Assembly: GCF_004025965.2 (NCBI RefSeq)
Contig: NZ_SAYU02000020.1
Coordinates: forward strand, 1-59,360
Direction of reading: 5' to 3'
Source: Phycicoccus flavus
GTDB taxonomy: Bacteria; Actinomycetota; Actinomycetes; Actinomycetales; Dermatophilaceae
Length of the DNA: 59,360 nucleotides
Positions 4,614 through 58,987 of this stretch are shown here, in pieces. A program made the position numbers and the translations under genes. The stretch's first letter is position 1, and the number at the start of each line of letters is the position of its first letter. The notes beneath the pieces are model-generated. The model saw nothing but the letters and a program-made list of their open reading frames with translations. It had not been told where the DNA came from and ran no database searches.

Positions 4614-7600
4614 TCATCTCGCGGCTCCCGGACGGTCCGCGGCCATCGCGTCGACGAGCTCCGCCGTCGCGCGCCGGACGTCGTCGTCGCCGTCGGTGCG
4701 CTGGGCGAGCGCGAGCACCCCCGGTGGTGCACCGGCCAGGAACGCTGACGGGACCTCCACCGCGTAGCCGGCGAGGACCTGCAGGAGGTGCGCGACCTCC
4801 GGCGGAGGATCGTCGGCCCGGCACAGTGCGTCGGCCAGGTCCGCGCCGCAGACCCACCACCACGCGAACGCGCCGGGCGCCTCCAGGGCCAGCCGGAGAC
4901 AGGACGAGAGCTCGGCGAGCCGTAGCTCGCCCGCCCGCCACCGGCGCAGGCCCGCGGTGGTGAAGGCCCGCTGGCCGAGCCGTCGACGCTGGGCGAGGTC
5001 GGCCGCGGTCACCCACCCCTCGGGCGGGCGCGGGTTTCTCGCCCCGCCCGTGTCGGGCGACATGACGGCGATGAGCCGGTCGTGGAGCGGGACCCCACCG
5101 GTCACCGCGACGTGGCCGAGGAACATCTCCGGCGAGACCCACCTCGACCGGCCGACCTCGGCCCGGACGGTGCGGTCGGGCCAAAGGGGCATGAGCCGGG
5201 CCGTCGCCACCTCCGAGCCCGGCGCCCACGGGTCGTCGCGCAGGGCGCGTGGCAGCGCCTCGAGCGAGGTGAAGGGCACGGGCGCGACCGCCGTCGTGGA
5301 CCACTCGCCGTCGTCGTCGAGCACGGGGTCCAGGTCGGGCAGTCCGCCCGCCTCGACCCACTGCCGTACCAGGGCGCCGGCGTCCCAGGACTCCGTGAGG
5401 CCCACACTCGTGAACCGAGGGTCGGTCGGCGGGCCGTCCGGGACCTCCGCGGCCCGGGCGGGGTCGACCGGACGCATCCGGTGGAGTGCCTGCACGAGGT
5501 CGAGCGGCCCGACCGTGGCGTCCGGGTCGCTCGCCACGACGGCCAGGCGGGCCAGGAGGTCATCGAGCTCGAGCGTGACGTCGGCGCGGGTGGGCGTGCT
5601 GAGCAGCACCTCGTGGCGGTCGGACCGGGCGAGCGCCTCGATCGCCCGGAGGAAGTGCAGCTGCTCGGCACCCCCTGCGAGCCCCCTGGGCACGACGAGC
5701 CGTCCGGAGCGGTCCTGCCGGAACTCCTCCAGCCGCTGGGGGAACGGTTCCGGCAGGTCCCAGACCTCGGGCCGGCCGGCCGCCCGAGCCTCTCGGTTGT
5801 GCTCCTGCACCCACTCGCGCTCGCTCTGCACCTCCGCGCCCGCGAACGCCCAGAAGAGGTCCTCGTCCGCGCCGCGGTCGAGCCAGACGTCGACGGCGAG
5901 CATGACGTCCCCGGACCCGCCGTGCGGTCTCAGCACGTCCGTCGGGACGGCGGCGGCCACGGCCGCGCGCCCCTGCCGGTGCGCCGTCCGGACCACGTGG
6001 GCGAGCATGAGGTCGGCGGACGCCGGACCCGGGTGGGACGCGGTCCAGGCCTGGGTCGAGTGGAACAGCCCGACGGTCGACTCGGGGACGCGTCCCATCT
6101 CCTGGCCCAGACGGTGCCGCAGCTCCTCGGCGTCGTCCACTCCCGTCATCTCCCCTGGTGGCACCATCCGCTTGCGGCTCGGCAGCGCGGTGGTGCGGGG
6201 CGGCCGCCTGAGCCACAGGCCCCGCCGGTCGGCGCGGAAGGGTCGTGGCGCCGGCGAGGCGGCCAGCCGGTCCTCCAGACCGGCCTCGTCGACGTCGAGG
6301 AGGGCGCAGGCCAGGGCAGCCGCCTCGGCACGGGCCTTGCTCCGCCCCCGACCGACAGCGACGGCCGCGACCTGGGCGGGCACGGGCCAGGGGCGGGGGA
6401 CCTCGACGGCGTAGCGTCCCAGCACCCGCAGGACGTCGGCCAGGCCGGTGGGCCGCTTCGGGAGGCCGCAGAGGTCGTCGGCGACCGCGAGCGCCGCGGC
6501 CCAGCAGTGCCGCAGCCCGCCGCCGAGGAACAGGTCCTCGAGCACGGCCGCGAGGGAGGAGGTGTTGAGCAGCCCGAGGGCCGTGAGGGATCGGCACGCC
6601 TCACGCAGGGACACGCCGTCGCCGAACGTGCCGTCGTGCATGGCGGCGAGAGCCTCCCCCACGATCTGCGGCCGGCGTTCACCCGTGTGGGCGGCGCCGG
6701 ACCGCAGGACGAGGTCCCACACGATCGGACCGTGGCGCTCGTCGTCGGACCGCGGGGACGACGGCGCCTGGGGCGTGACCTCCCACAGACCGCTCGCGGC
6801 GACCGGGACGGCATCCGCCGGCGCGTCCTCCCCGAGGGCGGCGACGACGCGCGCCACGTCGGCGTCGAAGGCGGCGTCCTCACCCGTGTGCAGGAGGGCG
6901 AGCGCCCCGAGGACGGCGTCCCGTCCGGCCCGCTCGACGACGTCGTCGCGGCGCAGCGCCGACAGGAGCATCGTCCGCGGCTTCTTGTCCGGGCGGGAGG
7001 CGACGACGCGCGCGAGGTCCCCGAGCCCGGGGCGGTCGCACACGGTCTCGATCGCCAGGGGGACGAGGGCCGCGACCACGGACCGGTCCGCCGTGGCCAG
7101 GACGCCGAGCAGGTAGACCAGGCCACCCGGGACCTCGTCGGCCCGCAGCCGCAGCGCCGTGGTGATGCCGGCGAGCACGCGCTGGGAGGCCGGGCGCTGT
7201 GGAGCGGTGAGCAGCTCCAGGACGTGGTCGAGGATCTCGGTGCGGTCGACGACCCCTCGTTCCACGAGCTCGGCCACTGCGGCCGGCAGGGTCGGGTAGG
7301 TCCCGCAGTCGCCGCACGCCAGGTAGAGCGGGAGAAGATCAGGCATGAGGGGGTCGCTCGCCAGGCGGTCGGCGAGGTCCGCGTCCTGCACCCGGTACTC
7401 GTCACGCTCGCCTTCCGCCGTGCCCGCCCACCACCGGCCGAGGAACGAGACACCGGTCGGGCAGGAAAGGCCGTGGTGGACGGCGACCGCACGGAGCACG
7501 CGCGCCAGCACGCCCTGACAGTTGCGGGCATCGCCGCCGAGCGGCACGTGGCTCGCGGCCTCGACGAAGGCCGCGGCGTCGTCCCGGCCCAGCTCGCACA

Positions 7601-7952
7601 GCATCCGGACCAGGTCGGCCTCGCCGGGGTCGTCGCGGTAGTCCCAGAGCTCTCGCCACGGGACCCGGCGGGCCGCCGACACCGGGCCGAGCACCGCGAC
7701 CGCCGTCATGGCCACGATCCAGTGCGCCGTCTGGCCGACGACGAGCGACCGGTCGGAGCTGTCCTCCCGTAGCGACTGCCGGACCCGCTGCACCATCTCG
7801 TCCGAGTCCCGCCGCCGGCCGACCCACTCGCGGGCCTCGCGGCGTCCCTGATCGTCGAGCCCGTCGAGCAACGCTCTGGCCGCATCCGGGTCGCCCGTCA
7901 GCATCACGGCCTCGAGCCGTGTGGCGAAGCCGTCCGTCGTCGTGGTCAACAC
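4614..7952 (-). CDS. Large DUF6493-like protein, paralogue B
   Basis: About 1,112 residues, soluble, helical and strongly similar over most of its length to the gene 31 bp downstream, so this is a tandem duplication that has since diverged mainly in the middle and C-terminal thirds. No catalytic motif of a known enzyme family is visible. The start is uncertain: GTG at 7952 is listed; TTG at 7949 is better spaced behind the GGGGAGGG ribosome site at 7954-7961 and lines up with the paralogue's start; an upstream ATG lies at 7976. It is probably co-transcribed with the hypothetical gene at 8061-8612 and with the downstream paralogue and SWIM gene. The function is unknown. Confidence 0.8.
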   Translation of the reverse strand: MLTTTTDGFATRLEAVMLTGDPDAARALLDGLDDQGRREAREWVGRRRDSDEMVQRVRQSLREDSSDRSLVVGQTAHWIVAMTAVAVLGPVSAARRVPWRELWDYRDDPGEADLVRMLCELGRDDAAAFVEAASHVPLGGDARNCQGVLARVLRAVAVHHGLSCPTGVSFLGRWWAGTAEGERDEYRVQDADLADRLASDPLMPDLLPLYLACGDCGTYPTLPAAVAELVERGVVDRTEILDHVLELLTAPQRPASQRVLAGITTALRLRADEVPGGLVYLLGVLATADRSVVAALVPLAIETVCDRPGLGDLARVVASRPDKKPRTMLLSALRRDDVVERAGRDAVLGALALLHTGEDAAFDADVARVVAALGEDAPADAVPVAASGLWEVTPQAPSSPRSDDERHGPIVWDLVLRSGAAHTGERRPQIVGEALAAMHDGTFGDGVSLREACRSLTALGLLNTSSLAAVLEDLFLGGGLRHCWAAALAVADDLCGLPKRPTGLADVLRVLGRYAVEVPRPWPVPAQVAAVAVGRGRSKARAEAAALACALLDVDEAGLEDRLAASPAPRPFRADRRGLWLRRPPRTTALPSRKRMVPPGEMTGVDDAEELRHRLGQEMGRVPESTVGLFHSTQAWTASHPGPASADLMLAHVVRTAHRQGRAAVAAAVPTDVLRPHGGSGDVMLAVDVWLDRGADEDLFWAFAGAEVQSEREWVQEHNREARAAGRPEVWDLPEPFPQRLEEFRQDRSGRLVVPRGLAGGAEQLHFLRAIEALARSDRHEVLLSTPTRADVTLELDDLLARLAVVASDPDATVGPLDLVQALHRMRPVDPARAAEVPDGPPTDPRFTSVGLTESWDAGALVRQWVEAGGLPDLDPVLDDDGEWSTTAVAPVPFTSLEALPRALRDDPWAPGSEVATARLMPLWPDRTVRAEVGRSRWVSPEMFLGHVAVTGGVPLHDRLIAVMSPDTGGARNPRPPEGWVTAADLAQRRRLGQRAFTTAGLRRWRAGELRLAELSSCLRLALEAPGAFAWWWVCGADLADALCRADDPPPEVAHLLQVLAGYAVEVPSAFLAGAPPGVLALAQRTDGDDDVRRATAELVDAMAADRPGAAR

Positions 7953-44393: not shown

Positions 44394-46535
44394 TCAGCGC
44401 ATCCGCGCCTCGACGGCCTTCCAGGTCACGGTGCCGACGACACCGGTCTGGGCGATCCGGGCGGCCCGCTGGGCGCCCTTGACGGCGGTCTCGGTCTGCG
44501 GGCCGAAGGACCCGTCGGCGGTGATCCGCAGCGCCCGCTGGAGCGCGACGACGGCCGAGCCGCGCGAGCCGCGCTTGAGGACGGTGCCCCAGTAGGGCAG
44601 CAGCGGGTGCGCCCGGCGCTCGACGACGTCCCAGGTGCGTCCGTCGACGACCCCGGTGGCCGAGAGGCCGCCGGCCCGCTGGACGGCCTCGACCCGCGCC
44701 TCGGTGGCCGGGCCGAACCGGCCATCGACCGAGAGCCCGCCGAGGGCGTCCTGCAGGGCGCGGACCGCCGCGCCGGTGGACCCGCGCCGCAGCGTCGTGC
44801 CCTTGTAGCGGGTGAGCTCGGTCGTCGCCACCGCCGAGGAGCTGCCCGAGGACGAGCCGCCCGAGGTGGAGGACCCCGACGAGGACGACCCCGACGTGCC
44901 GGCCGAGCCGCCGGCGAGCACCGCCCAGTCGCGCCGGTCGACGACGCCGTCGACCGCGAGGCCCTTGCTCTGCTGCCAGGCCTTGACCCGGGCCAGCGTC
45001 GCCGGCCCGAAGGAGCCGTCGACGGTGAGGCCGCCGATGGCCCTCTGCATCGCCTTGACGGCCTCGCCGCGGCTCCAGAGCCGCAGGGTGAGGCCGCTGT
45101 ACTGCGCGAGCGAGCCGCCCGTGGTGGACGAGCCGGTGGACCCCGAGCCCGACGTCCCCTTGCCCATGAGCGCGTTCCACACCCGGCCGTCGACGACGCC
45201 GGTGGCGGTGAGGCCCTTCGAGCGCTGGTAGGCCTTGACCCGCGCCTCGGTGGCCGGGCCGAAGGAGCCGTCGACGGCGATGCCGCCGATGGCCTTCTGC
45301 AGCACCGACACCGCGGTGCCGCGCGAGCCGCGGCTGAGGACGGTGTCCGCGTACCGGGCCAGGCCCGAGGCGGTGGAGCCGGAGGTGCCGGACCCGGACG
45401 TCCCCTTGCCCATGAGCGCGTTCCACACCCGGCTGTCGACGACGCCGGTGGCGGTGAGGCCCTTCGAGCGCTGGTAGGCCCTGACCCGCGCCTCGGTGGC
45501 GGGCCCGAAGGAGCCGTCGACCGCGATGCCGCCGATGGCCTTCTGCATGACCGACACCGCGGTGCCGCGCGAGCCGCGGCGCAGCACGGTGCCGGCGTAC
45601 TTCGCGAGGGTGGCCGGGTCGGCCGAGGTCGAGCCGGAGCCCGACGTCCCGCCGCCGCTGCCCGTGCCGGACCGGCCGATGATGGCGTTCCAGACCCGGC
45701 TGTCGACGACCCCGTTGACGGTGAGGCCCTTGGACCGCTGGTACTCGCGGACCCGGGCGTCGGTGGCGGGGCCGAAGGAGCCGTCGACGGTGAGGCCGCC
45801 GATGGCCTTCTGGAGCACCCGGACGGCCTGGCCGCTGGAGCCGAGCCGCAGCGTGACGTTGACGTAGTCGGCCGGGTCGCTCGAGGCCGGGGTCGAGGTG
45901 CCCGAGCCGCCGCTGCGGGGGCCGGTGAGGTAGTCGACGACGGGGACGCCGGTCCACCAGGACGTGCGCTTGTACGCGCCGTCCCAGGTGAAGGAGATGT
46001 GGATGTGGTCGGTGTGCGGCGAGGAGCCGGTGTAGGGCTGCCAGCCGCGGCCCGGGTCCCACGCCTTCCAGATCTGCCGGTTCCAGATCATGTAGTTGAT
46101 GCCGAAGCGCCGGGCCATCGCGGCCGGCCGGCCCTTGCTGTCGCTCGCCGCGAGCCAGCGGGTCACGGCGTTGCCGATGGCCAGGTCCTTGGAGTTGGAC
46201 GCGTTGAGCATCCAGTCCAGCGCCCGGCCCTCGCCGTGCTCCTGGTCGCACTTGCGCAGCACGCCGTAGGTGTGCGAGCCGTAGGTGGCGTTGAGGAGCT
46301 TGGCGAAGGCGATCGGTCCCGGCTGGCTCTCGTTGAGGCAGAGCACGCCCCGCTGGTAGGGCGGGGTGACGTCCAGCCCGCTCGGCAGGGTGCGGCTCGG
46401 CTGGGGCAGCGGGACGCTCGCGGCGTCGGCGGTCCCGCCGACGAGGGGGACGGCCATCACCGAGACGGACAGGGCACCGAGGGCGCGCACCGAGCCGCGT
46501 CGCAGCGGCGTGGAGTCGGGCTTGGGCAGGGACAC
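44394..46535 (-). CDS. Secreted protein with VldE-like domain and six peptidoglycan-binding repeats
   Basis: 713 residues from GTG 46535 (GGAG lies 9 nt upstream). Residues 1-40 are a signal peptide ending GTADAA. Next is a domain with CDQEHGEGRALDWML and SPHTDHIHISFTWDG, whose Glu/Asp and HxDHIH residues match the VldE/ARB_07466 C-terminal domain, a presumed metal-dependent fold. Six PG_binding_1 repeats follow (each like YAGTVLRRGSRGTAVSVMQK ... VDGSFGPATEARV), joined by Gly/Ser/Thr linkers. The product should bind and perhaps process wall peptidoglycan. Repeats 2 and 3 are nearly identical, a recent duplication. Confidence 0.85.
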   Translation of the reverse strand: MSLPKPDSTPLRRGSVRALGALSVSVMAVPLVGGTADAASVPLPQPSRTLPSGLDVTPPYQRGVLCLNESQPGPIAFAKLLNATYGSHTYGVLRKCDQEHGEGRALDWMLNASNSKDLAIGNAVTRWLAASDSKGRPAAMARRFGINYMIWNRQIWKAWDPGRGWQPYTGSSPHTDHIHISFTWDGAYKRTSWWTGVPVVDYLTGPRSGGSGTSTPASSDPADYVNVTLRLGSSGQAVRVLQKAIGGLTVDGSFGPATDARVREYQRSKGLTVNGVVDSRVWNAIIGRSGTGSGGGTSGSGSTSADPATLAKYAGTVLRRGSRGTAVSVMQKAIGGIAVDGSFGPATEARVRAYQRSKGLTATGVVDSRVWNALMGKGTSGSGTSGSTASGLARYADTVLSRGSRGTAVSVLQKAIGGIAVDGSFGPATEARVKAYQRSKGLTATGVVDGRVWNALMGKGTSGSGSTGSSTTGGSLAQYSGLTLRLWSRGEAVKAMQRAIGGLTVDGSFGPATLARVKAWQQSKGLAVDGVVDRRDWAVLAGGSAGTSGSSSSGSSTSGGSSSGSSSAVATTELTRYKGTTLRRGSTGAAVRALQDALGGLSVDGRFGPATEARVEAVQRAGGLSATGVVDGRTWDVVERRAHPLLPYWGTVLKRGSRGSAVVALQRALRITADGSFGPQTETAVKGAQRAARIAQTGVVGTVTWKAVEARMR
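45156..45660. repeat. Near-identical tandem coding repeats (peptidoglycan-binding modules 2 and 3)
   Basis: Two copies of about 240 bp encoding modules 2 and 3 plus their linkers share long identical stretches (for example MGKGTSGSGTSG, QRSKGLTATGVVDSRVWNA, AIGGIAVDGSFGPATEARV). They are prone to unequal recombination and to assembly collapse. Confidence 0.6.
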
Positions 46536-46732
46536 TCGCAGGCTCCGTCCGGACAGGCAGGGGGCACCCGGGGGCAGGGGGCCGGGTGCACCCGGAACTC
46601 GTCTCGGACGACTCACACGTCACACGCGATTCCCAGGCATCACAGTTGTCTCATCCGTCACCGGACCGACGCAACACGTTCCGCCGAATTACAGAGGTGT
46701 ACTTCCGGCGGCCCGGGAACGGGGTCGGAAGC

Positions 46733-48952
46733 TCACTGCCGGCCGGCGGTCCGCAGGACCGTCGTCGACACGACGCGGGTCCCGCCGACGGCCACGACGC
46801 GCTCCAGGTCGGGGGTCTCCTGGAGCACGACCGACGTGGGTGCGGGCAGTGTCGCCGACCCCGTGAGCAACGTGATCCGGCCGATGCTCCCGGCGGTGAG
46901 GGCGTCCGCGAGGGAGCCGTCGGCCCCGCTGGCCAGCGAGACGCGCGTGGTGTCGCCGAGGCGGTCGCGGTAGAACGCCGCGACGGCCGCGGCCGAGGCG
47001 TAGCGCGAGCCGCCGGCCAGCCGCTGGACGGTGAGGCCCGTCCGCCGCAGACCGGTCTCGACCGCCCCCGAGACCGACGTCGTCCCGCCGACGACCCGCA
47101 CCGTGCCGGCCCCGGTCGTGGCGAGCGCGTCGGACGTCTCCGCCGGGAGGGTGTCCCGGCGGGTGAGGAGGACCGGCTCGCGGACCGCGCCCGCCGGGCC
47201 GCCCGCGCCGAGGGCGTCGACGAGCGACTCGCCCGAGGCGAGGACGACGGCCGAGACGGCGCCGCGCCGGTCGATGTCCGCCGCGACGTTCGCCGCGACG
47301 GCGTACCGGTTGGCGCCGCCGATGCGGGACACCGACAGCCCGAGGCCCTGCAGCGCGGTGACGACGTCCGGCGAGACCGCCGCCGGTCCGCCGACGACGA
47401 CCGCGCGGCGCAGGTCCGGCCGGGCGGCGATGGCGTCCCGGGTCGCGGCCGGCAGACGGGTCGCCCGGGTGAGGAGCATGGGGGCGGCGAGCGACTGGGC
47501 CAGGGGTCCGCCGACGGCGGCGTCGGGGCGGGCGGAGTCCTCGCCGCTGACGACGACGACCGTCGTCGCGGAGCGCGCGCGGGTCGCGGCGAGCTTGGCC
47601 GCGGTCACGTAGCGGTCGGTCCCGGCGACCCGGCTCGTCGGCCGCGCGAGGTACGTCGAGTACAGGCCCAGCCGGCCGCGCAGCGACTCCCCGCTCAGGG
47701 CGACCGTGGTCCCCGAGGACGAGGTGGCGCGCGCGGTGGCGACCGCGCCCGAGGCGTAGCGGTCGGAGAGGTCGAGCCGCCGGACGTCGCCGAGCCCGAA
47801 GGCCGCCGCGAGGGTGCTGCGGGCCGGGGTGGCGGTCCACGCGCGCCGCGGGTTGCTGCTGCGCTGGGACCAGTGGTCGTCGACGCTGCGCAGGTAGGGC
47901 AGCGCCGAGGTCCAGACGTCCTCGCTGTTCTGGGTGCGGCCGCCGGTCGAGGAGGAGTAGTAGGCGTCGATGACGGCCCCGCCGTAGGTCGCCACGTACC
48001 CCCGGGTCGGCGAGCCGGCGGCGTCGACCGCGGCGGTCCAGGCCGGCAGGTAGGAGCGGTCCACGGACCCGGAGGGGTAGCCGCCGAAGACCTGGCTGCG
48101 GCTGTCGTCGTACAGGTGGCAGTTGCACGAGGTGCTCACGCCCGCCTGGAGCCGGCGCAGGGCGTAGCCCCGGGCCGCCGCCGCCTGGGCCTGAAGGGTC
48201 GCCGCCGGCCAGGACCACGGGACCTCGCGGAGGTAGTCGAGGTACTCGTCGTGGATGCGCACGTACATGACGACCTCGAGGCTCGCGGCACCCGGCGTGC
48301 GGGTGACCCGGAGCATGCCGTCCCTGTAGAGCGTGCCGTCGACGGAGAGCAGCGTCCGGTCGTCGTCCCAGGTGACGGTGGGCCGGGCCCCCGTCGAGGA
48401 GGTGACCGCGCAGGTCGGGCAGGACACGGTGATCTCGCTGCCGGAGGGGCGGACGGTGACGGTGTCGCCGACGCCGCCGCTCACGGTCGCCCCGCCGGAC
48501 ACGGCGATGCTGAAGGAGCCGCCGCCCGTCCCGAGCCGCGAGGTCCGCAGCGTCGTCGAGCCCACCCGCTGGCGGACGTTGACCCGCAGCGTCGCGTCGT
48601 CCTCGCGCGTCTCGTAGGCCGTGCCGGTGTAGTAGTGCCCGAGGATCTCCGCGGCGGAGTAGCCGTCCCGCCCCATCTCGTAGGCGCCGTACTGGCTCAT
48701 CCCGACGCCGTGCCCCCACCCGGACCCCGAGAGGGTCCACGTCGAGGACAGGGCGGCCGCCGCCCCGGAGGCGTCCGGCGCGGCCGGGGCCACCGGCGCG
48801 ACGGGCTCACCCGGACCCGCGGGGCCGGGGACCGGGCGGGGCTGGTCGACGCCCCAGGGGACGTCCTCCGCCCCCGCGGCCGGCGCGGCCGTGGTGGCCA
48901 GCGCCGCCACGGCGAGGGCGGCCAGCACGCGCACCGCCCGCGCCGGTCTCAT
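46733..48952 (-). CDS. Secreted SpoIID/LytB-domain protein with three CWB2 repeats
   Basis: 739 residues. Signal peptide 1-28, then SpoIID/LytB-like domain (about 75-400) in the order usual for actinobacteria: GSGWGHGVGMSQYGAY and ILGHYYTGT come before LQAQAAAARGYALRR and CHLYDDSRSQVFGG, i.e. permuted relative to Bacillus SpoIID. Where lytic transglycosylase SpoIID has Glu in EALKAQ, this reads ATLQAQ, so activity is doubtful. Three CWB2 repeats (about 441-739; RVAGTDRYVTAA, ISRIGGANRYAVAAN-type starts) anchor it to wall polysaccharide. ATG 48952 overlaps the amidase stop (ATGA): the two wall proteins are co-translated. Confidence 0.88.
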   Translation of the reverse strand: MRPARAVRVLAALAVAALATTAAPAAGAEDVPWGVDQPRPVPGPAGPGEPVAPVAPAAPDASGAAAALSSTWTLSGSGWGHGVGMSQYGAYEMGRDGYSAAEILGHYYTGTAYETREDDATLRVNVRQRVGSTTLRTSRLGTGGGSFSIAVSGGATVSGGVGDTVTVRPSGSEITVSCPTCAVTSSTGARPTVTWDDDRTLLSVDGTLYRDGMLRVTRTPGAASLEVVMYVRIHDEYLDYLREVPWSWPAATLQAQAAAARGYALRRLQAGVSTSCNCHLYDDSRSQVFGGYPSGSVDRSYLPAWTAAVDAAGSPTRGYVATYGGAVIDAYYSSSTGGRTQNSEDVWTSALPYLRSVDDHWSQRSSNPRRAWTATPARSTLAAAFGLGDVRRLDLSDRYASGAVATARATSSSGTTVALSGESLRGRLGLYSTYLARPTSRVAGTDRYVTAAKLAATRARSATTVVVVSGEDSARPDAAVGGPLAQSLAAPMLLTRATRLPAATRDAIAARPDLRRAVVVGGPAAVSPDVVTALQGLGLSVSRIGGANRYAVAANVAADIDRRGAVSAVVLASGESLVDALGAGGPAGAVREPVLLTRRDTLPAETSDALATTGAGTVRVVGGTTSVSGAVETGLRRTGLTVQRLAGGSRYASAAAVAAFYRDRLGDTTRVSLASGADGSLADALTAGSIGRITLLTGSATLPAPTSVVLQETPDLERVVAVGGTRVVSTTVLRTAGRQ

Positions 48953-51318
48953 CGGTGCACCGCGCGCTGGACGTCGCCGCCGGTGGTCAGGTCCACGCTC
49001 GCCGACCCACCGAGGACCGTGGCCGTCGTCACCGGGGCGGCGGTCAGCCACTCCCGGACCGAGCGGGGCAGGGCGTCGGAGCGGACGTAGACGCCCGCCC
49101 GCCCGAGCTGGCCGCCGGAGAGGGTGTCGACGAGGCTGCGCTCCTCGCCCGAGGAGACGAGGACGGAGGAGACGTCGACGCCCGAGCGCTGCGCCCAGGC
49201 GGCGACACCGGCACTGACCGCGTACCGGTTGGCGCCGCCGATGCGGGTGGCGCCGGGGAGCCCGGCGAGGACGTCGTCGGCGACCGCGCTGGGTCCACCG
49301 GCCACGACCGTGCGGACGGTGCCGAGGTCGGCCAGGACCGTCGCCGAGGGCTGCGGCACCGCGTCCGGCCGGACGAGGACGACGGGACGGCCGAGCCGGG
49401 CGGCCGGTCCGGACACCACGAGGCCGTCGGCCATCGAGCGCGGCGAGCCGCTGGCGACGAGCACGTCGGGGGCGGACCCCCCGACGGCGACCTTGCGGGC
49501 GACGGCGGCGGAGACCTCGTAGCGGTTGGCGCCGCCGATCCGGGCGACCTGGGCGACCCCGTCGGCGCGGAGCTGGTCGAGGACCGTCCGTCCGACGGCG
49601 GTCTCCCCGCCGACGACGACGGCCGACGTCACGCCACGGCGCCGGATCTCGGCGCGGGTCTCGTCGGGCAGGCCCGCGGCCCGGGTGAGGAGCAGGACGG
49701 CGCCGGTGCGGCGGGCGTAGGGCGCGGCCACGAGCGCGTCGGACATGCCGGAGGTCGTCCCGTTGACGATGACGACCTTCGTCGCCGAGCTGCTCCGCGC
49801 CTTCGCGGTCGCGACGGCGACGGCGTAGCGGTTGGCCCCCGAGAGGCGCGGCGGGCAGAACCGCGGCGGCGCCCCCGCGACGGAGCCGACCGTGACCAGC
49901 CAGCTGCGGCCGATCGCGGTGTCCGCGGCGGCGCTGCCCGTGCTCGCCGCGAGCGTCACGCGGTAGCTGCCCGGCGGGGCGAACGTGCCGTCGGAGAGGC
50001 GGCCCTCCCACGCCGCCGACAGCGACCCGGACGCCGACCCGCGCACGACGCGGTCCGGCCGGTCGTGGCACACGCTCTGCACGGTGAGGGTCCAGGTGAG
50101 GGGCTCGCTGACCCGCCCGCTCACGCTGACCCCACCGGTGCCGTAGGCGTAGGACGTCCGGGAGATCGAGGGCCGGTAGACCATCGTCCCCTGGTAGTCC
50201 CGGGCGCGCTGGCGGATCGAGGCCAGCTGGGAGTAGAGGTTCGTGCCCGGGCACGTCGTCTGGTTGACGTCCCGGTGCCCGATCACCGTCGGGGCGCTGC
50301 CGAACCCGTCGAGGGTGGTGCTCGCCGTCGGGTCGATCCGCTCCAGTCCGAGCCGCCAGGCGACGAGCTTGGACACGGCGGTCGGGACGGCCGACGGCGG
50401 GGTGGCCGAGGTGAAGTCGCCGATGACCGAGATGCCGGTGCTCTGGCTGTTGTACGGGGCCGCGTGGGCGCCGACCATGTCCTTGGTCGTGCCGCCGTAG
50501 CGGCCCTCCCACGTGCGGCCGAAGCGGTCGACCAGGAAGTTGTAGCCGATGTCGCCCCAGCCGCGGTCGACGGTGTGGAAGACGTAGATGCCGCGCAGGA
50601 TGCTCGGGACCTCGGCCGCGGTGTAGTCGTTCGAGCCCGCCGTGTGGTGGACGATCGCGGTCCGCACGACGCCCTCGTAGACCTTGGCGTGCCGGATGCT
50701 CTCGTCGGCGCCCCAGTCCCCGCGGGTGTAGACCGTCGGGCGGGTGGCCGCGGCCGAGGCGCCGCCGGCCGGGGTCGCGGCGAGGTCGCGGTCGGCCGCG
50801 GTCGTCGTCGCGTCGACGACGTCGAAGCGGGCGGCCCGGCCTCGGCCGCGGGTGTCGCCGAGGACCCGGGTCTGGACGGCGTCGGCGGTCGAGACCCAGG
50901 GGGCGGTCCCGCCGCGGGCGCCGGCGGCGTCCGGGGAGTCGGGGTCCGGACCCTCGTCGGCGGCGGACTCCAGGTCCTGCCACTCGCCCCAGGCGCCGTC
51001 GCGGCGCTCGCGGATCTGGACGGTCGCGGCACGGGCGACGCCGCCGCGCTCCCAGGTGACGCCGACGACGTGCGCGCGCCCCCCGAGGTCGACGGTGCTC
51101 GAGCGCGCCTCGCCGCCGGGGGCGGCGGCGGGGTCACCGGGGGCGGCGAGGCCCGTCGGCGCCGGACGCGCGGTGAAGGAGTAGGACTGCGTCGTCGTCG
51201 ACACCGGTCGCGGCTGGGCCGAGGCGCCCGTCCCGCCGGAGGCGATGACGGGCACGACGACGGCGGTGGCGAGGGCGAGCAGGGCGGACAGGGGGCGCCG
51301 CAGGGCAGCAGAGATCAT
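48949..51318 (-). CDS. Secreted N-acetylmuramoyl-L-alanine amidase (PGRP fold) with CWB2 repeats
   Basis: 789 residues from ATG 51318. Signal peptide 1-35, an extended region to about 190, then a PGRP/amidase_2-type domain (about 192-370): AIVHHTAGSNDYT gives zinc ligand His224, VIGHRDVNQTTCPGTN gives His348 and Cys356, with WGDIGYNFLVDRFGRTWEGR between. It cleaves the muramic acid-L-Ala bond. An Ig-like region (about 385-500) and three CWB2 repeats (about 508-789) follow. It is translationally coupled to the downstream SpoIID-CWB2 gene, suggesting both are placed on the same wall polymer. Confidence 0.93.
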   Translation of the reverse strand: MISAALRRPLSALLALATAVVVPVIASGGTGASAQPRPVSTTTQSYSFTARPAPTGLAAPGDPAAAPGGEARSSTVDLGGRAHVVGVTWERGGVARAATVQIRERRDGAWGEWQDLESAADEGPDPDSPDAAGARGGTAPWVSTADAVQTRVLGDTRGRGRAARFDVVDATTTAADRDLAATPAGGASAAATRPTVYTRGDWGADESIRHAKVYEGVVRTAIVHHTAGSNDYTAAEVPSILRGIYVFHTVDRGWGDIGYNFLVDRFGRTWEGRYGGTTKDMVGAHAAPYNSQSTGISVIGDFTSATPPSAVPTAVSKLVAWRLGLERIDPTASTTLDGFGSAPTVIGHRDVNQTTCPGTNLYSQLASIRQRARDYQGTMVYRPSISRTSYAYGTGGVSVSGRVSEPLTWTLTVQSVCHDRPDRVVRGSASGSLSAAWEGRLSDGTFAPPGSYRVTLAASTGSAAADTAIGRSWLVTVGSVAGAPPRFCPPRLSGANRYAVAVATAKARSSSATKVVIVNGTTSGMSDALVAAPYARRTGAVLLLTRAAGLPDETRAEIRRRGVTSAVVVGGETAVGRTVLDQLRADGVAQVARIGGANRYEVSAAVARKVAVGGSAPDVLVASGSPRSMADGLVVSGPAARLGRPVVLVRPDAVPQPSATVLADLGTVRTVVAGGPSAVADDVLAGLPGATRIGGANRYAVSAGVAAWAQRSGVDVSSVLVSSGEERSLVDTLSGGQLGRAGVYVRSDALPRSVREWLTAAPVTTATVLGGSASVDLTTGGDVQRAVHR

Positions 51319-51451
51319 GGCGAAAGTCCAGAGGCAGGGGGGTGGACGGCAACAGGGTGCCACACCGATCACGTCCTGACCCTCCAGTCACAAGAGTCTC
51401 GACGAGACGGCTGAGGGGCCCCTCAGCCGGCCCCGCGGGGGGCGGCGGCGG

Positions 51452-53464
51452 TCAGGAGCCCGGGCTCAGCACGACGTCGACGGTCCGGGGCTGGGCCTCC
51501 GGGGTCGTGCCACCGTCGACGCACCGCGCGACGAACCCGGCCGGCGGGTCGACGCAGACCCGGTGGGTCGTGTTCCCGCGCACCCCGCTCACCTGGTAGT
51601 ACCCCTCGGCGTCGGTGACCCCGACCGCCTCGATGCCGTCGCCGGGCACCATCTCGTTGACGACCCGCACCGTGGCGCCCTGCACGCGGGCGCCGGCGGT
51701 GGAGGTCACCCGGCCCTGGACCGTCGCGGACGCCGTGACGGGCACCGTACGCCGGGTCGTCGTGCCGGCGGTGACCGAGAGCGTCGGGGCGAGGGCCGCG
51801 CCGGCGTCGGTGCACGCCGAGTAGGGGTCGTAGCCGTAGGAGGCGCCCCGGCCGACGGTCACCCCCCACGCGTCGTAGCAGACGAGGAAGGAGCCGGCGG
51901 GCAGGGCGCCGGTGGGCGTGCGGCCGAGGGAGTCGGTGACGAGGTCGCGGCGCAGGCCGCGCGGGCCGTAGACGTAGACGGCGACCCCCGGCAGCGGTGT
52001 CCCGGCGGTGTCGGTCGTCGTCACCGTCGCGGCGCCGAGGCCGCGCAGCCCAACGTCGAGACCGGTGACCGGCGTCGCCCCGACCGTCACCGGGTCGGCG
52101 GTGGACGGCCCGGCGCGGTCGCGGTGGCACTCGGCCTCGTAGCCCGAGGGGTCGACCGACCCGCCGGTGGCGGTAGAGCCGTCGACGCACAGCCGGACGC
52201 GGCCCGCGGGCGCCCCGACCACGCGGTAGACGCCGTTGGCGTCGCTCACGGTGGCGAGGGAGGTGAGCTCCCCCAGGGCGTCGTCGTACACCCGCAGCCC
52301 GACGCCGGACAGGGGCGCGCCGCTGCCGCCCTGCTCGGTGACGGTGCCGCGGACCGAGAGCGGGCCGCGGGGCACGACGTACTGCTCGAGCGCCGCCTGC
52401 ACGTCCGCGGACACCGAGGCCGGGCCGCCGAGGACGACGATGCGCTCCGGTCGCAGGCGGGTCAGCTCGGCGGCCGTCGCGTCCGGGATCGCCGTGCCGC
52501 GCACGAGGAGCATCGGCGCCCCGTCGACCCCGCCCGCGGGGCCGCCGGACAGGGCGTCGGGGAAGTTCTCTCCGGTGGCGACGTAGGCCACCCGGGACCC
52601 GGCGCCGAAGCTCGCGGCGCTGACCCGGGCCGAGGCGACGTACCGGTTCGCGCCGTCGAGACGCTCGACGGACCCGGAGGTGTAGCGGGCCAGGTCGGCC
52701 TCGACCGCGCCCGACACCGAGGTCGTGCCGCCGAGGACGACGATGCGCCGCGGGGCGAGCCGGACCAGCTCGCGGGCGGTCGCCCGCGGGATCGTCCCGG
52801 TGCCGACGAGCAGCACCGGGCCGCCGGCCAGGGCCGCCGGGGGGCCGCCGGACAGGGCGTCGGGGAAGTTGCGGCCGGTGGCGACGTGGACCACGGGCAC
52901 CCCGGGGGCGAAGGTCTCCGCGCTGATCCGGGCCGCGGCCTCGTAGCGGTTGGCGCCGTCCAGCCGCGTCACGAGGCCGGTGGTGAAGGCCCCGAGCGAC
53001 TGCTTCACCCCGTCCGTCACCGACGTCGTCCCGCCGAGGACGACGATCCGCCGCGGGGCGAGGCGCCGCAGCTCGGCGGCGACGACCACCGGCACCGAGT
53101 CCGTGCGGACCAGCAGCACCGGCCCGCCGGTGTAGCCGCCGACGGGGCCGCCGGCCAGCGCGTCGGGGAAGTTCAGCCCGGTCGCGACGTAGGCGACCGG
53201 CACGCCGGGGTCGAAGGTGGCGGCGCTGACGGCCGCCGACGCCGCGTACCGGTCGGCCCCGGCGAGGCGGAAGACCCCGGGGGCGTCGGCCCCGGCGAGC
53301 GAGGTACGGGTCACCGGGGCGGCGGCCGGGCCACGGGCGTCGGCGGTCGCGGTGACGGCGCCGAGCACGGCGACGAGCGCGGCGACGACGGCCAGGCGGG
53401 CCCGCGCGCTCCGGCGGTGCGGGCGGTCGACGGGCCCCCGCGCACGAGCAGCGGCGTCGGCCAC
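51452..53464 (-). CDS. Secreted CWB2 protein with CnaB/carboxypeptidase-regulatory-like domains
   Basis: 670 residues from GTG 53464 behind GGGAGGGT. A basic N-terminus and hydrophobic segment (LAVVAALVAVLGAVTATADA) form a signal peptide at about 25-45. Three CWB2 repeats (about 60-345; FRLAGADRYAASAAV, PRRIVVLGGTTSV) come first and three or more CnaB/carboxypeptidase-regulatory beta-sandwich domains follow (PLSVRGTVTEQGGSG, DANGVYRVVG, ATVQGRVTSTAGARV). It has no enzymatic motif or sorting signal; a surface-displayed structural or adhesive protein held by CWB2 is the best reading. TACCGT at 53518-53523 is a candidate -10 box. Confidence 0.85.
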   Translation of the reverse strand: MADAAARARGPVDRPHRRSARARLAVVAALVAVLGAVTATADARGPAAAPVTRTSLAGADAPGVFRLAGADRYAASAAVSAATFDPGVPVAYVATGLNFPDALAGGPVGGYTGGPVLLVRTDSVPVVVAAELRRLAPRRIVVLGGTTSVTDGVKQSLGAFTTGLVTRLDGANRYEAAARISAETFAPGVPVVHVATGRNFPDALSGGPPAALAGGPVLLVGTGTIPRATARELVRLAPRRIVVLGGTTSVSGAVEADLARYTSGSVERLDGANRYVASARVSAASFGAGSRVAYVATGENFPDALSGGPAGGVDGAPMLLVRGTAIPDATAAELTRLRPERIVVLGGPASVSADVQAALEQYVVPRGPLSVRGTVTEQGGSGAPLSGVGLRVYDDALGELTSLATVSDANGVYRVVGAPAGRVRLCVDGSTATGGSVDPSGYEAECHRDRAGPSTADPVTVGATPVTGLDVGLRGLGAATVTTTDTAGTPLPGVAVYVYGPRGLRRDLVTDSLGRTPTGALPAGSFLVCYDAWGVTVGRGASYGYDPYSACTDAGAALAPTLSVTAGTTTRRTVPVTASATVQGRVTSTAGARVQGATVRVVNEMVPGDGIEAVGVTDAEGYYQVSGVRGNTTHRVCVDPPAGFVARCVDGGTTPEAQPRTVDVVLSPGS

Positions 53465-55132: not shown

Positions 55133-56851
55133 TCAGAGGTCGAGGTCGTCCTCGGTTCGCTCGGGCTCCTCGCCGCCGAGGTAGCCGGCCAGCGCCTGGC
55201 GCACGCTCGGTGTCACCGCCATCGGCCCGCCGAGCACGACGACGTGGCTCGGCCGCAGCCGCTCCAGCTCGGTGTGCGTCGCGGCCGGGACCTCGTCGCG
55301 GTCGACGAGCAGCAGCGGCGCGTCGGCGAGGTCGGCGACGGCCGCCCCGGCCACGGCGTCGCTCACGGACTCGGCCGCGCCCGAGGCGACGAACACCTCG
55401 CCCACGCGGGCCGGGTCGAAGCGGGCGGCGGCGTCGGCGGCGGCCTGGACCGGGGTCGGCGCCAGCAGCCGCTCGGCCCCCCCGGCGGCGAGGCCGGCCA
55501 GCGCCTCGACGACGTCGTCCGACAGGGTCCGGTCGTCCGCGACGACGACGAGGCGCCGGGGCGCGAGCCGCCGGAGCACCTCCTCGTGCCGCGCGGTCGG
55601 CCCCTCGGGGTCGACGAGCAGCACCCGGCCGTCCTCCTCCTGGGCCGTGAGGACGGCGGTGAGCGCGGCCTGGGCGTCCTCGCCGGGCACGAGGTAGACG
55701 GCGTCGACCCCGGCCTCGCCCTCGTCGGTGGCGTGCAGCGCCAGGCTCGTCGTCACGGTGTCCTCGCCGTCGACCCGCTCGACCTCGAACCCGGCCTCAC
55801 GCACGCCGTCGGCGACGTCCTCGGCGAGCACGTCCGTGCCGCCGAGCAGGAGCACCCGGCGCGCCTCGAGCCGGGTGAGCTCCTTGCGGGTCACCGGCAT
55901 GAGCCGCCCGGGAGAGGTGAGCAGCACCGGCGCCCCGACCCGCGCGGCGGCCGGCACGGCGGACAGGGCCAGCGGCAGGTCGGCGCCGGAGGCGAGCAGC
56001 ACGGTGTCCCGGCGGCCGGGCGTCCCCTGCCGGGAGACCAGCGCCGAGGTGTGGTACCTCGTGTCGCCCGCCCAGCGCTCGACGCCCGGCACCTCGGGCT
56101 CCCGGGGCGCGGCCTTGCCGAGCGAGCGCTCGGCCGCGGCGGCGTAGGCGTCGACGACGTCGTCGACCGGGCCGTCCATGAGCAGCGTCCCGCCGTCCAG
56201 CCACATCGCCCGGTCGCACATGGCCCGGATGGTCGCCGCCGAGTGCGACACGAGGAAGACGGTGCCGGCCTGGTCGCGCAGCGCCTCGATGCGCTCCTGG
56301 CTCTTGGCCCGGAAGTGCGCGTCACCCGTGGCCAGGGCCTCGTCGATGACGAGGACGGGGGGCACGGCGGCGGTCGAGATCGCGAAGCGCAGCCGGGCGG
56401 CCATGCCCGAGGAGTACGTCGACATCGGGTAGTGGATGGCGTCGCCGATGCCGGAGAACTCGACGATCTCGTCGTAGATGTCGTCGACCTGGGCCTTGGA
56501 GAGCCCGAGCGCCTGGGCGCCGATGTAGATGTTGCGGGCCCCCGACAGCTGCCGGACGAGCACGGCGTTGACCCCGAGGAGCGACGGCGTGCCGTCGGCC
56601 CAGACCTCGCCGCGGGTCGGCGGGACGAGCCCCGCCACCGCCCGCAGGAGGGTCGACTTCCCCGACCCGTTGCGCCCGATGATCCCGATGGACTCGCCGT
56701 GGTTCGCCACGAAGGAGACGTCCTTGACGGCGTGCACCTCGCGGACCCCGCGCCGCCCGCCCGAGCGCCCGGACCCGCCCTTGGCGAAGACGGTGTAGAC
56801 GATGTCGACGTGCGAGACGATGACCGAGGGCCTCGGCTCAGCCGCGGCCAT
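55133..56851 (-). CDS. Polysaccharide-exporter ABC ATPase fused to three CWB2-like repeats
   Basis: 572 residues. Residues 1-245 are a TagH/Wzt-type ATPase: Walker A GRNGSGKST (59-67), signature YSSGM (146-150), Walker B LVIDEA (Asp170, Glu171), H-loop LVSHS (His203). From about 257 to 560 there are three CWB2-like repeats, for example VLLASGADLPLALSAV, RRVLLLGGTDVL and HVVVLGGPMAVTPSV. No membrane segment separates the halves, so the CWB2 part should be cytosolic. In Wzt exporters a C-terminal carbohydrate-binding domain recognises the polymer; CWB2 may play that role here. ATG 56851 overlaps the permease by 14 bp. A highly acidic tail ends the protein. Confidence 0.9.
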   Translation of the reverse strand: MAAAEPRPSVIVSHVDIVYTVFAKGGSGRSGGRRGVREVHAVKDVSFVANHGESIGIIGRNGSGKSTLLRAVAGLVPPTRGEVWADGTPSLLGVNAVLVRQLSGARNIYIGAQALGLSKAQVDDIYDEIVEFSGIGDAIHYPMSTYSSGMAARLRFAISTAAVPPVLVIDEALATGDAHFRAKSQERIEALRDQAGTVFLVSHSAATIRAMCDRAMWLDGGTLLMDGPVDDVVDAYAAAAERSLGKAAPREPEVPGVERWAGDTRYHTSALVSRQGTPGRRDTVLLASGADLPLALSAVPAAARVGAPVLLTSPGRLMPVTRKELTRLEARRVLLLGGTDVLAEDVADGVREAGFEVERVDGEDTVTTSLALHATDEGEAGVDAVYLVPGEDAQAALTAVLTAQEEDGRVLLVDPEGPTARHEEVLRRLAPRRLVVVADDRTLSDDVVEALAGLAAGGAERLLAPTPVQAAADAAARFDPARVGEVFVASGAAESVSDAVAGAAVADLADAPLLLVDRDEVPAATHTELERLRPSHVVVLGGPMAVTPSVRQALAGYLGGEEPERTEDDLDL

Positions 56852-57725
56852 AGGTGCCCTCCCCGCGCCAGAACACGACGACGCCGAGCGCGAGCAGCCC
56901 GACCGCCCAGCCCAGGCCCATGAGCCAGGAGTGCAGCGCGAGCGGGTGCTCGGCGAGCAGGGCCTGCCGGCCGAGCTCCAGCTGCAGCGCGAACGGCTGG
57001 TTGAGCAGCACGTCGCCGACGAGCGGCGGGAAGCGGTCGGCGAAGACGCTGATGCTGAAGAAGACCCCGGAGGTGTAGCGCATGAGCCGGACGATGAGCG
57101 GGATGAAGTTCGCGAGGTCGCGCGAGGCGTTGACCACCCGGGCCGCGACGAGGGCGATCCCGGTGAGCTGGACGAACTGGAGCGCCACCGCGAGGGGGAA
57201 CAGCAGCCAGTGCCAGGTGAAGGGCTCGCCGGTCAGCGGGGTGAGGACGACGAGCAGCGCGAAGGCCGGCCACGAGGTGTACAGCTGGGACAGCGCGACC
57301 GAGACCGGCAGCGCCGCCCGCGGGAAGCGCAGGGCCCGCACCAGCCCGAGGTTGTTCGTGATCGCCTTGGCGCCGCTGGAGATCACCGACGCGGTGACGC
57401 CGAAGAGCACGACGCCGATGGACAGGAACGCGATGAAGTTCTCGACGCCCCGGTTCGTGCGCAGCAGCAGCCCGAAGACGAGGAAGTAGCTGACGATGAG
57501 CAGCATCGGGTTGAGCAGCGACCACAGCTGGCCCAGCCGGTGCTTCTCGTACTGCGCGGCGCTCTGCGCGGCCGAGAGGGTGACGACGAACTGGCGGCGG
57601 CGCCACAGCTCGGCGAGGTAGCCGCGCAGGCCCGGACGGCCCGACAGCGAGGCGAGCCCGTGGCGGCGTGCGAGGGCGCGCGCGTCCTCGAGCGAGAGCG
57701 CCGCCTCCGGGGTCGCCGAGCTCAC
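56838..57725 (-). CDS. ABC-2 type permease of a polysaccharide/teichoic-acid exporter (TagG/Wzm-like)
   Basis: 295 residues from GTG 57725. A soluble N-terminus of about 40 residues with the amphipathic connector YLAELWRRRQFVVTLSAAQS is followed by about six membrane helices (LLIVSYFLVFGLLL and others), and loops YTSGVFFSISVF and VGDVLLNQPFALQL characteristic of Wzm/TagG permeases. It pairs with the downstream ATPase (14-bp overlap) and overlaps the dehydrogenase stop by 4 bp (GTGA), making a three-gene operon for precursor synthesis and export of one glycopolymer. Confidence 0.9.
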   Translation of the reverse strand: MSSATPEAALSLEDARALARRHGLASLSGRPGLRGYLAELWRRRQFVVTLSAAQSAAQYEKHRLGQLWSLLNPMLLIVSYFLVFGLLLRTNRGVENFIAFLSIGVVLFGVTASVISSGAKAITNNLGLVRALRFPRAALPVSVALSQLYTSWPAFALLVVLTPLTGEPFTWHWLLFPLAVALQFVQLTGIALVAARVVNASRDLANFIPLIVRLMRYTSGVFFSISVFADRFPPLVGDVLLNQPFALQLELGRQALLAEHPLALHSWLMGLGWAVGLLALGVVVFWRGEGTYGRG

Positions 57726-58987
57726 AAGCGGTGGACCCCGTCGCCGTCGGCCGCCACGCCCCGGGTGTCGAAGAACCGGTGGGCCCTCGCGGCGAGCGCG
57801 TCGACGTCGTAGGCGCGGTGGTGCTGGAGCAGCACGACGAGGTCGGCGTCGGCGACGGCGTCCTCGACCGGGTCGGCGACCCGCGGCACCCGGTCGCCGA
57901 ACGCGGCCCAGGTCTGCGCGTGCGGGTCGTGGAAGACGAGGTCGGCGCCCTTGTCGAGCATGTGCCGGGCCACCGGGACCGACGGCGACTCGCGCTGGTC
58001 GGCGATGTTGGGCTTGTAGGTGATGCCAAGCAGCAGCACCTTCGCGCCGCGCAGCGCCTTGCCGTCCTCGTTGAGGATGTCCTGGGCGCGCGAGACGACG
58101 TAGCCCGGCATCGTCGAGTTGATCTCCTGGGCGAGCTCGACGAAGCGGAACGGGTAGCCGAGCTTGGCCCGCACGTTGTAGCTGAGGTAGTTCGGGTCGA
58201 TGGGGATGCAGTGCCCGCCGACGCCGGGGCCGGGGTAGAAGGCCTGGAACCCGAACGGCTTGGTCTTCGCGGCCTCGATGACGTCCCACAGGTCGATGCC
58301 GAGGTCGTGGCAGAAGCGGGCCATCTCGTTGACGAGCGCGATGTTGATGTGCCGGTAGGTGTTCTCGAGCAGCTTCGCGGTCTCGGCCTCGCGCGTGCCC
58401 TTGGCGCGCACGACGGTGTCGACGAAGCGGCCGTAGAACTCGGCGGCCCTGTCGCCGGACTCGGGGGTGTACCCGCCGACGACCTTCGGGGTGTTCTTGG
58501 CGCCGAACTGCGCGTTGCCCGGGTCGATGCGCTCGGGCGAGAAGGCGAGGTGGAAGTCCTCGCCGGCGGTGAGGCCGCTGGTCTCGAGGATCGGCTTGAC
58601 GACCTCGTCCGTGGTGCCGGGGTAGGTCGTGGACTCCAGGACGACGAGGGTGCCCGGGGTGAGGTTGCGGGCGATGGCCTGCACGGCGCCCTCGACGGCG
58701 CCGAGGTCCGGCCCGCCGCCCTCGCCGAGCGGCGTCGGCACGCAGACGACGACGACGTCGGCCTCGCGGATGACGTCCTCGTCGGTCGACGCGCGGAAGC
58801 CGGCGTCGAGGATCTCGCGCAGCTCGTCGTCGTCGATGTCGTCGATGTGGGAGGTCCCGGCGTTGAGCCCGTCCACGACCCGCTCGCTGATGTCGAACCC
58901 CCGGACGCTCAGACCGGCGCGGGTGGCCTCCTGGACGAGCGGGAGACCGACGTAACCGAGACCGATCACGGTGACGTCCACAGCCAT
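57722..58987 (-). CDS. Nucleotide-sugar dehydrogenase (UDP-GlcNAc/ManNAc or UDP-Glc 6-dehydrogenase family)
   Basis: 421 residues. It oxidises C6 of a UDP-hexose twice with NAD+, giving the uronate used in wall glycopolymers. NAD loop VIGLGYVGLPL (7-17), CVPTPL, SPERIDPGN, KLLENTYRHINIALVNE and catalytic Cys260 in PGPGVGGHCIPIDP are all present. SPERIDPGN and overall length fit the WbpA/WecC-type N-acetylhexosamine branch better than UDP-glucose enzymes, but this is not certain. ATG 58987 has the best ribosome site in the window (AAGGAG, spacing 7). TACACT at 59036-59041 may be its -10 box. It is first in the exporter operon. Confidence 0.92.
   Translation of the reverse strand: MAVDVTVIGLGYVGLPLVQEATRAGLSVRGFDISERVVDGLNAGTSHIDDIDDDELREILDAGFRASTDEDVIREADVVVVCVPTPLGEGGGPDLGAVEGAVQAIARNLTPGTLVVLESTTYPGTTDEVVKPILETSGLTAGEDFHLAFSPERIDPGNAQFGAKNTPKVVGGYTPESGDRAAEFYGRFVDTVVRAKGTREAETAKLLENTYRHINIALVNEMARFCHDLGIDLWDVIEAAKTKPFGFQAFYPGPGVGGHCIPIDPNYLSYNVRAKLGYPFRFVELAQEINSTMPGYVVSRAQDILNEDGKALRGAKVLLLGITYKPNIADQRESPSVPVARHMLDKGADLVFHDPHAQTWAAFGDRVPRVADPVEDAVADADLVVLLQHHRAYDVDALAARAHRFFDTRGVAADGDGVHRL

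Follow-up and report, generated by a model that had tools for sequence, protein, structure and literature searches.

A polysaccharide exporter ATPase fused to a predicted cytosolic CWB2 triad in Phycicoccus flavus and its relatives

The 59,360-nucleotide contig NZ_SAYU02000020.1 of Phycicoccus flavus, here called the window, encodes on its minus strand (55133-56851) a protein of 572 amino acids in which the ATPase of a polysaccharide ABC exporter is followed directly by three repeats of the CWB2 family, and a homologue search for ATPase-CWB2 fusions finds the same full-length arrangement in 26 of 186 genomes of the window's family (Actinomycetales), its own included. The C-terminal half is confirmed as a true CWB2 triad, and since the protein shows neither a visible signal peptide nor a visible membrane helix the triad is predicted to be cytosolic. 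To our knowledge the CWB2 fold has until now been met only outside the cell. The exporter is of a known type, its C-terminal domain is of a fold new for that place, and the position of the domain, its operon and the neighbouring polymer genes together suggest that reading of the polymer before export would be its likeliest role. A first-pass annotation of this DNA knew of no described exporter of this design, and no description of an ABC ATPase fused to CWB2 was found among the open-access PMC entries listed (titles and abstract starts, with most subscription papers lying outside that library); protein databases may well list the architecture.

The two halves of the fused protein

The fused gene and the two genes that precede it are laid out as follows.

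55133..56851, minus strand: fused gene, polysaccharide-exporter ATPase with three CWB2 repeats (572 aa)
56132..56830, minus strand: nucleotide-binding domain of TagH/Wzt type, aa about 8-240 (Pfam ABC_tran; TagH 7dd0, E 2.4e-51)
56081..56131, minus strand: hydrophilic linker, aa 241-257, with a conserved VPG and no membrane helix (hydropathy of 25 fused proteins)
55802..56080, minus strand: CWB2 repeat 1, aa 258-350, RxxGxxR and PVLL kept
55502..55780, minus strand: CWB2 repeat 2, aa 358-450, RxxGxxR lost
55184..55474, minus strand: CWB2 repeat 3, aa 460-556, RxxGxxR lost, PLLL kept
56838..57725, minus strand: ABC-2 type membrane permease (PF01061, 27.9 bits, cut-off 26.9)
57722..58987, minus strand: UDP-glucose/GDP-mannose dehydrogenase family protein (three Pfam domains)

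The fused protein matches CW_binding_2 (PF04122) in three stretches with an E value of 8.5e-25 (87.6 bits against a cut-off of 24.9), and a home-made CWB2 model places the repeats at aa 258-346, 358-447 and 460-550, where three CWB2-like repeats had been proposed in the first-pass annotation (about 257-560). Searched by sequence against the PDB, aa 250-572 matched Cwp6 of C. difficile across the whole triad (E 4.6e-14), then chains of Cwp8 and SlpA, and as the last of nine matches a designed TIM barrel (E 1.4e-4). An AlphaFold2 model of the C-terminal half, for which four CWB2 triads of the window were used as the alignment, has a pLDDT of 89.6 and a pTM of 0.87, and all 11 PDB matches that Foldseek returned for it at E<=1e-3 are C. 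difficile CWB2 structures, with TM scores of 0.74-0.80 against Cwp6, Cwp8 and SlpA (SLPH), Cwp6 being the best at 0.80; a full-length model was poor (pLDDT 55.7) and was not used. Either the domain search or the comparison with crystal structures could have denied that this half is CWB2, and both returned CWB2 instead. Five orthologues that were tested all exceed the PF04122 cut-off (69.6, 73.1, 30.2, 42.8 and 30.8 bits), and with our own CWB2 model three tandem repeats, which in CWB2 make up one pseudo-trimeric tile, are found in all 25 fused proteins that were extracted (that of the window among them) and also in the 26th (L197 of genome G377), which is left out of most of the protein counts given here (n=25).

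The ATPase half is complete and of the TagH/Wzt type, as had been annotated. ABC_tran (PF00005) matches aa 42-173 with an E value of 2.2e-18 (67.6 bits against a cut-off of 25), and the translation shows VSHS together with GRNGSGKST, YSSGM and VLVIDEA, which we take to be the Walker A, signature and Walker B motifs respectively. The nearest PDB chains are TagH, TarH and Wzt-type ATPases, TagH 7dd0 being the closest solved relative. Amongst the NCBIfam models the nearest are those for TagH and for the mycobacterial-type galactan exporter ATPase (Wzt/RfbE, NF050108), yet the fused protein stays under their equivalog cut-offs, with 176.5 against 538 bits for PRK13545 and 166.1 against 320 bits for PRK13546 in the case of TagH, and 159.5 against 400 bits for NF050108, a model of 244 positions that ends with the ATPase and has no CWB2.

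The ATPase gene begins within the final 14 nt of the permease gene, its start codon following GGGGAGGG, and the start of the permease overlaps the end of the dehydrogenase gene by 4 nt. Because the three genes overlap, ATPase, permease and UDP-sugar dehydrogenase look like one coupled operon, in which the 14-nt overlap would couple permease and ATPase and the dehydrogenase would supply a UDP-sugar acid for the polymer; the window is the whole contig and its edge lies 373 nt upstream of the dehydrogenase start. An ATPase of the TagH/Wzt group with a separate ABC-2 permease in an overlapping gene is the arrangement of a Type V polysaccharide ABC exporter. By eye, a dehydrogenase gene upstream of the permease is kept in genomes G053, G049, G037 and G036 and is absent in G020, G240 and G331.

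Occurrence, location and descent of the fusion

The full-length fusions are distributed over five genera, with five in g1, one in g20, three in g37, 16 in g38 and one in g49, and one further fusion, in G036 (g36), breaks off not far past the linker, where its contig ends. In a sample of the order (297 genomes) full-length fusions were found in six genomes, all of the window's family, and in a sample of the phylum (396 genomes) only in the window's own genome. No fusion outside the family was seen in the order and phylum samples at these strict cut-offs (E<=1e-75 for the order, E<=1e-110 for the phylum and E<=1e-115 for the family, with only 3-7 candidates scored per genome), and a fusion with a distant ATPase, or one outside the sampled genomes, would escape such scans. 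It is very unlikely that a frameshift, a misassembly or two separate genes account for the fusion, as the window's gene is a single ORF with an ATG start and zero internal stops and there are 26 full-length fusions, several of them on megabase contigs; a frameshift that splits ATPase from CWB2, which the first-pass annotation had allowed for, is thus rejected. In G037 and G374 one TGA is listed in the matched stretch, and both frames read through all three repeats.

The ATPase also occurs alone. In a separate profile scan the 80 loci that were retained have matches listed within the first 349 residues, in the ATPase half, and no CWB2 was found in any of them. Some of the ATPase-alone profile matches run past the stop beyond model position 300. 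Nine such places were inspected and no CWB2 repeat was seen nearby; in eight of them the ORF ends soon after the ATPase, and the ninth (G415) gave no ORF with the pattern used.

The location of the triad is predicted from hydropathy. In the window protein no 19-residue Kyte-Doolittle window reaches 1.8, the maximum being 1.55 and that of the N-terminus 1.01, as against 2.46 for the permease and 1.81-2.17 for the N-termini of three secreted CWB2 neighbours. Across the 25 fused proteins the highest window is 1.97 and three proteins exceed 1.8, each within the CWB2 part, whilst the linker does not rise above 1.17 nor the N-terminus above 1.02. By this measure, no dedicated topology predictor having been used, there is no signal peptide or membrane helix in the fused proteins, in agreement with the earlier view that no helix separates ATPase from CWB2 and that a wall-binding module normally found outside appears inside the cell. 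Export to the cell surface, which is otherwise a trait of CWB2 proteins, is accordingly not indicated here. The linker itself is conserved, with V254 in 25, P255 in 22 and G256 in 25 of the 25 proteins.

When CWB2 triads are placed in a tree, one branch with support of 100/99 divides the 25 fused ones from the 23 secreted ones (the latter drawn from seven fusion genomes), and therefore the fused CWB2 forms one subfamily; the fused triads do not group with the secreted triads that neighbour them. The ATPase tree has 51 rows, of which 26 are fused (25 full and one partial), and three of the 28 ATPase-alone loci have no row in it (L025, L049 and L053). Here the fused rows need three state changes, at least two of them demanded by branches with good support. 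In genus g11 the rows with the ATPase alone nest in a clade otherwise made up of 18 fused rows (97/88), which suggests that the CWB2 domain has been lost in g11, while the count of states by itself cannot separate gain from loss.

The fused triads are mostly under purifying selection. In ten ortholog pairs picked by hand, dN/dS is 0.09-0.31 across the ATPase and, in nine of the pairs, 0.26-0.60 across the CWB2 part; repeat 2 has the highest dN among the repeats in eight of the ten and the highest dN/dS in six. Nor is the fused triad decaying faster than secreted wall anchors in the three comparisons that were made, the identity of fused as against secreted CWB2 orthologues being 0.64 against 0.57 and 0.60 between G000 and G053, 0.38 against 0.40 between G331 and G037, and 0.38 against 0.37 between G049 and G037.

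The number of other CWB2 proteins in fusion genomes varies. In nine genomes that were considered (eight with a full fusion, and G036), many CWB2 matches are found in G000, G053 and G020, where secreted CWB2 genes also adjoin the fusion, one other CWB2 protein is found in each of G049, G037, G240, G331 and G036, and none was found in G038. The fusion is also missing from many family genomes with dozens of CWB2 matches. As a separate observation, most g47 genomes have at least 17 CWB2 matches and no full-length fusion is listed for them; one, G400, has up to 89 CWB2 candidate places and an ATPase-only exporter of the same subfamily.

A putative reader of wall polymer

In Wzt the carbohydrate-binding domain (CBD) is reported to bind the O-antigen cap beside the ATPase, to release it on ATP binding and to give rescue when it is supplied in trans (PMC9445017). 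The CWB2 repeats stand directly after the ATPase as the CBD does in Wzt, and in both cases an ABC ATPase of a two-component polysaccharide exporter bears a C-terminal cytosolic module for which cargo docking is proposed (PMC9445017). They are unlike in that the module of Wzt is a jelly-roll dimer recognising a chemical cap (PMC9445017) whereas the module described here has the three-repeat CWB2 fold, belongs to an actinobacterium and shows no jelly-roll. CWB2 triads elsewhere bind anionic wall polymer (PMC4973711) and the triad of SlpA has a role in S-layer packing (PMC8881574).

By analogy with Wzt, and with slightly better than even confidence, we read the fused triad as a cytosolic cargo-docking domain that is CBD-like in role and of unrelated fold, for a wall polymer that is probably phosphate-linked. 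The fused protein would then be the ATPase of a two-component type-V (TagGH or Wzm-Wzt-like) exporter of wall glycopolymer, with the triad hanging from it into the cytosol by the short hydrophilic linker. There the triad could dock the lipid-linked polymer, or its finished end, beside the ATPase, and ATP closing the dimer might cause the triad to release it. In bacteria of the Gram-positive type, wall-polymer export is not known to involve the cargo-reading domain that Wzt has; if the triad is a reader, its conserved presence on the cytosolic ATPase would mean that cargo reading arose independently. Furthermore, the fused protein offers a soluble single chain on which the ligand of CWB2, and the repeat that holds it, could be studied.

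The cargo is likely to be a phosphate-linked, anionic glycopolymer, to judge from the genes that accompany the fusion. In G053 and G038 a CTP_transf_like gene (labelled TagD-like) and a gene of the CDP-glycerol glycerophosphotransferase family lie beside the fused orthologue, G038 has in addition three Stealth phosphotransferases and a CDP-alcohol phosphatidyltransferase there, and G049 has a UDP-GlcNAc 2-epimerase gene. By the listed coordinates a Glyphos_transf match lies within 6 kb of at least 10 of the 26 fusion genes; in the window's own genome such matches are on other contigs.

Two short motifs bear on how the triad might bind. The first, P[ILV][ILV][LV], is needed for anchoring in CWB2 of C. 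difficile, its proline being dispensable (PMC4973711), and the window protein has it too in its first and third repeats, the sites of repeats 1-3 reading PVLL, RVLL and PLLL. Among the 25 fused proteins repeats 1 and 3 mostly have P followed by hydrophobic residues and repeat 2 is weakened, mostly to something like RAVV, and in genus g38 the DAL region of repeat 1 gives way to a conserved run of basic and aromatic residues that in most cases resembles ARMVAPIAARLGWPLLWVRPG.

The second motif, RxxGxxR at the opening of a repeat, is not a published criterion and was picked from viewing the alignment rather than set beforehand. It opens repeats 1, 2 and 3 in 17, 19 and 15 of the 23 secreted triads, with 14 triads having it in all three repeats, as against 22, 0 and 0 of the 25 fused triads, in which 5 of 25 starts of repeat 2 and 19 of 25 starts of repeat 3 are unaligned and were scored as absent. 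An alignment-free count finds RxxGxxR past position 80 in 1/25 fused and 19/23 secreted triads (Fisher p 1.7e-8, relatedness ignored). A smaller secreted set, of six proteins near fusion genes, has the motif in 17 of 17 repeats, the set of 23 triads being the fairer one. In fused repeat 1 its residues are well kept, with R259 in 25, G262 in 24 and R265 in 23 of the 25 proteins. This contrast between fused and secreted triads is new here. From the C. difficile CWB2 proteins, which are surface proteins that bind PSII, the fused protein differs in its predicted cytosolic location, its attached ATPase and its single RxxGxxR, in repeat 1. The secreted SpoIID-CWB2 triads of G036, G049, G331 and G037 (L163, L178, L166 and L179) are also without RxxGxxR, and a SpoIID-like protein (by eye) is the sole secreted CWB2 protein found in each of these four genomes.

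A number of observations weigh against a polymer-reading role. Repeats 2 and 3 of every one of the 25 fused proteins start without RxxGxxR, and all 25 triads carry a net negative charge (-3 to -22; secreted triads average +4.8, with 5/23 negative), an acidity that does not favour charge-based binding of an anionic polymer. At least five CWB2 matches are present in 7/26 fusion and 62/160 other genomes (Fisher p 0.28, in counts that include the fused repeats themselves), so that a tie between the fusion and secreted CWB2 proteins is unsupported and its occurrence gives no support for a ligand shared with them. A genome-wide tie to CDP-glycerol polymer genes is likewise not significant, Glyphos_transf being found in 13/26 fusion and 55/160 other genomes (p 0.13), where both Fisher tests treat related genomes as independent. 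The apparent loss in g11 makes the domain seem dispensable in some lineages, the pair G440/G443 has a dN/dS of 0.96 across the CWB2 part, and dN/dS of repeat 2 exceeds 1 in two of the ten pairs.

The charge of the triads was abandoned as a sign of ligand loss. Cwp6 is near neutral too, with a net charge of -2 (308/313 residues used), and the median pI is 5.9 among 174 proteins of these neighbourhoods that have neither a signal nor a membrane helix; because of this the acidity of the fused triads says little about their ligand, and it fits cytosolic life. For 16 proteins whose only hydrophobic stretch is N-terminal the median pI is 6.2, so that being basic, as most secreted triads are, is not something that proteins of this kind share in general.

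The loss of RxxGxxR from repeats 2 and 3, the acidity of all 25 triads, the presence of the fusion in genomes where one or no secreted CWB2 protein was found and its absence from many with dozens of CWB2 matches also argue against the simple idea that fused and secreted triads have the same ligand. An exporter would need weak, releasable binding where an anchor must hold on for good, and a fall in the number of repeats with the motif from three to one could fit such a change, from a permanent anchor with three sites to a releasable reader with one. It is possible, if doubtful, that a wall anchor has in this way moved into the cytosol and been rebuilt from three equivalent glycan sites into a single releasable reader of polymer before export. 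If so, lineages rich in secreted CWB2 proteins may have one fold that meets one polymer both inside the membrane and beyond it.

An alternative that we regard as unlikely, though deserving of weight, is that the triad binds no glycan and serves instead for protein-protein docking or dimerisation, linking the exporter to cytosolic polymer synthases. In the S-layer of C. difficile, CWB2 tiles do pack together (PMC8881574), the gene directly behind the fused one codes for a glycosyltransferase in G049 (by Pfam) and G037 (by eye), and the absence of RxxGxxR from repeats 2 and 3 would be in keeping with it. However, several ATPase-only orthologues have the same kind of gene directly behind them (by eye), and because they share that arrangement the domain is not needed for it; the triad also diverges about as much as secreted, wall-binding CWB2 does, which would be quick for a fixed protein interface.

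It is improbable that the triad acts as a sensor, with a small phosphorylated precursor (a nucleotide sugar or CDP-glycerol, for instance) as the ligand through which it tunes the activity of the ATPase. Its repeats are alpha/beta in the AlphaFold2 model, and the conserved R259, G262 and R265 of repeat 1 could hold a phosphate, but there is no significant fold match beyond cell-wall CWB2 proteins and we know of no CWB2 with a small ligand. We think it quite improbable that the domain is a relic, left when a secreted CWB2 gene nearby was fused to no effect, and since then tolerated and decaying. The three secreted CWB2 genes downstream, the degenerate repeats 2 and 3, the apparent loss in g11 and the pair with dN/dS near 1 speak for a relic; however, the fused triads form one clade, occur in five genera, have all three repeats readable in 26/26 genomes, stand apart from the neighbouring secreted triads, have dN/dS of 0.26-0.60 in 9/10 pairs and are predicted to fold at high confidence. 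Finally, an extracellular CWB2 part, after the manner of B. subtilis TagH with its membrane helix and extracellular, wall-binding-like SH3b-like domain (PMC11466899), is very improbable and was rejected for want of a membrane helix, as the few windows over 1.8 (3/25 proteins) fall inside the CWB2 fold, neither linker nor N-terminus holds a hydrophobic segment and all 25 triads are acidic.

Secreted CWB2 genes and other features nearby

The window contains three genes for secreted CWB2 proteins, which lie 1.7-6.2 kb downstream of the fused gene.

51452..53464, minus strand: secreted CWB2 protein with a CarboxypepD_reg domain, not part of the exporter (PF04122, 162.8 bits)
48949..51318, minus strand: secreted amidase-CWB2 protein (PF01510 and PF04122)
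46733..48952, minus strand: secreted SpoIID-CWB2 protein (PF08486 and PF04122)

They belong to a row of four wall-type genes (44394-53464, minus strand) that run in the same direction as the exporter and encode six PG_binding_1 repeats, SpoIID-CWB2, amidase-CWB2 and CWB2-CarboxypepD_reg, with a 4-nt overlap between the SpoIID-CWB2 and amidase-CWB2 genes; a CoA-transferase pair on the opposite strand separates this row from the exporter. Among the secreted CWB2 proteins of other genomes, L161 (G240:C4, about 138 kb) combines a serine hydrolase-like N-terminal half (by eye) with a CWB2 triad, and in G053 several CWB2 matches on C19 (about 52-55 kb) recur at identical scores on C23 (about 37-40 kb), as either an assembly duplicate or a recent copy. 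Elsewhere in the window, two long genes lie in tandem on the minus strand (1280-4576 and 4614-7904), encoding proteins of 1098 and 1096 aa with similar N-termini.

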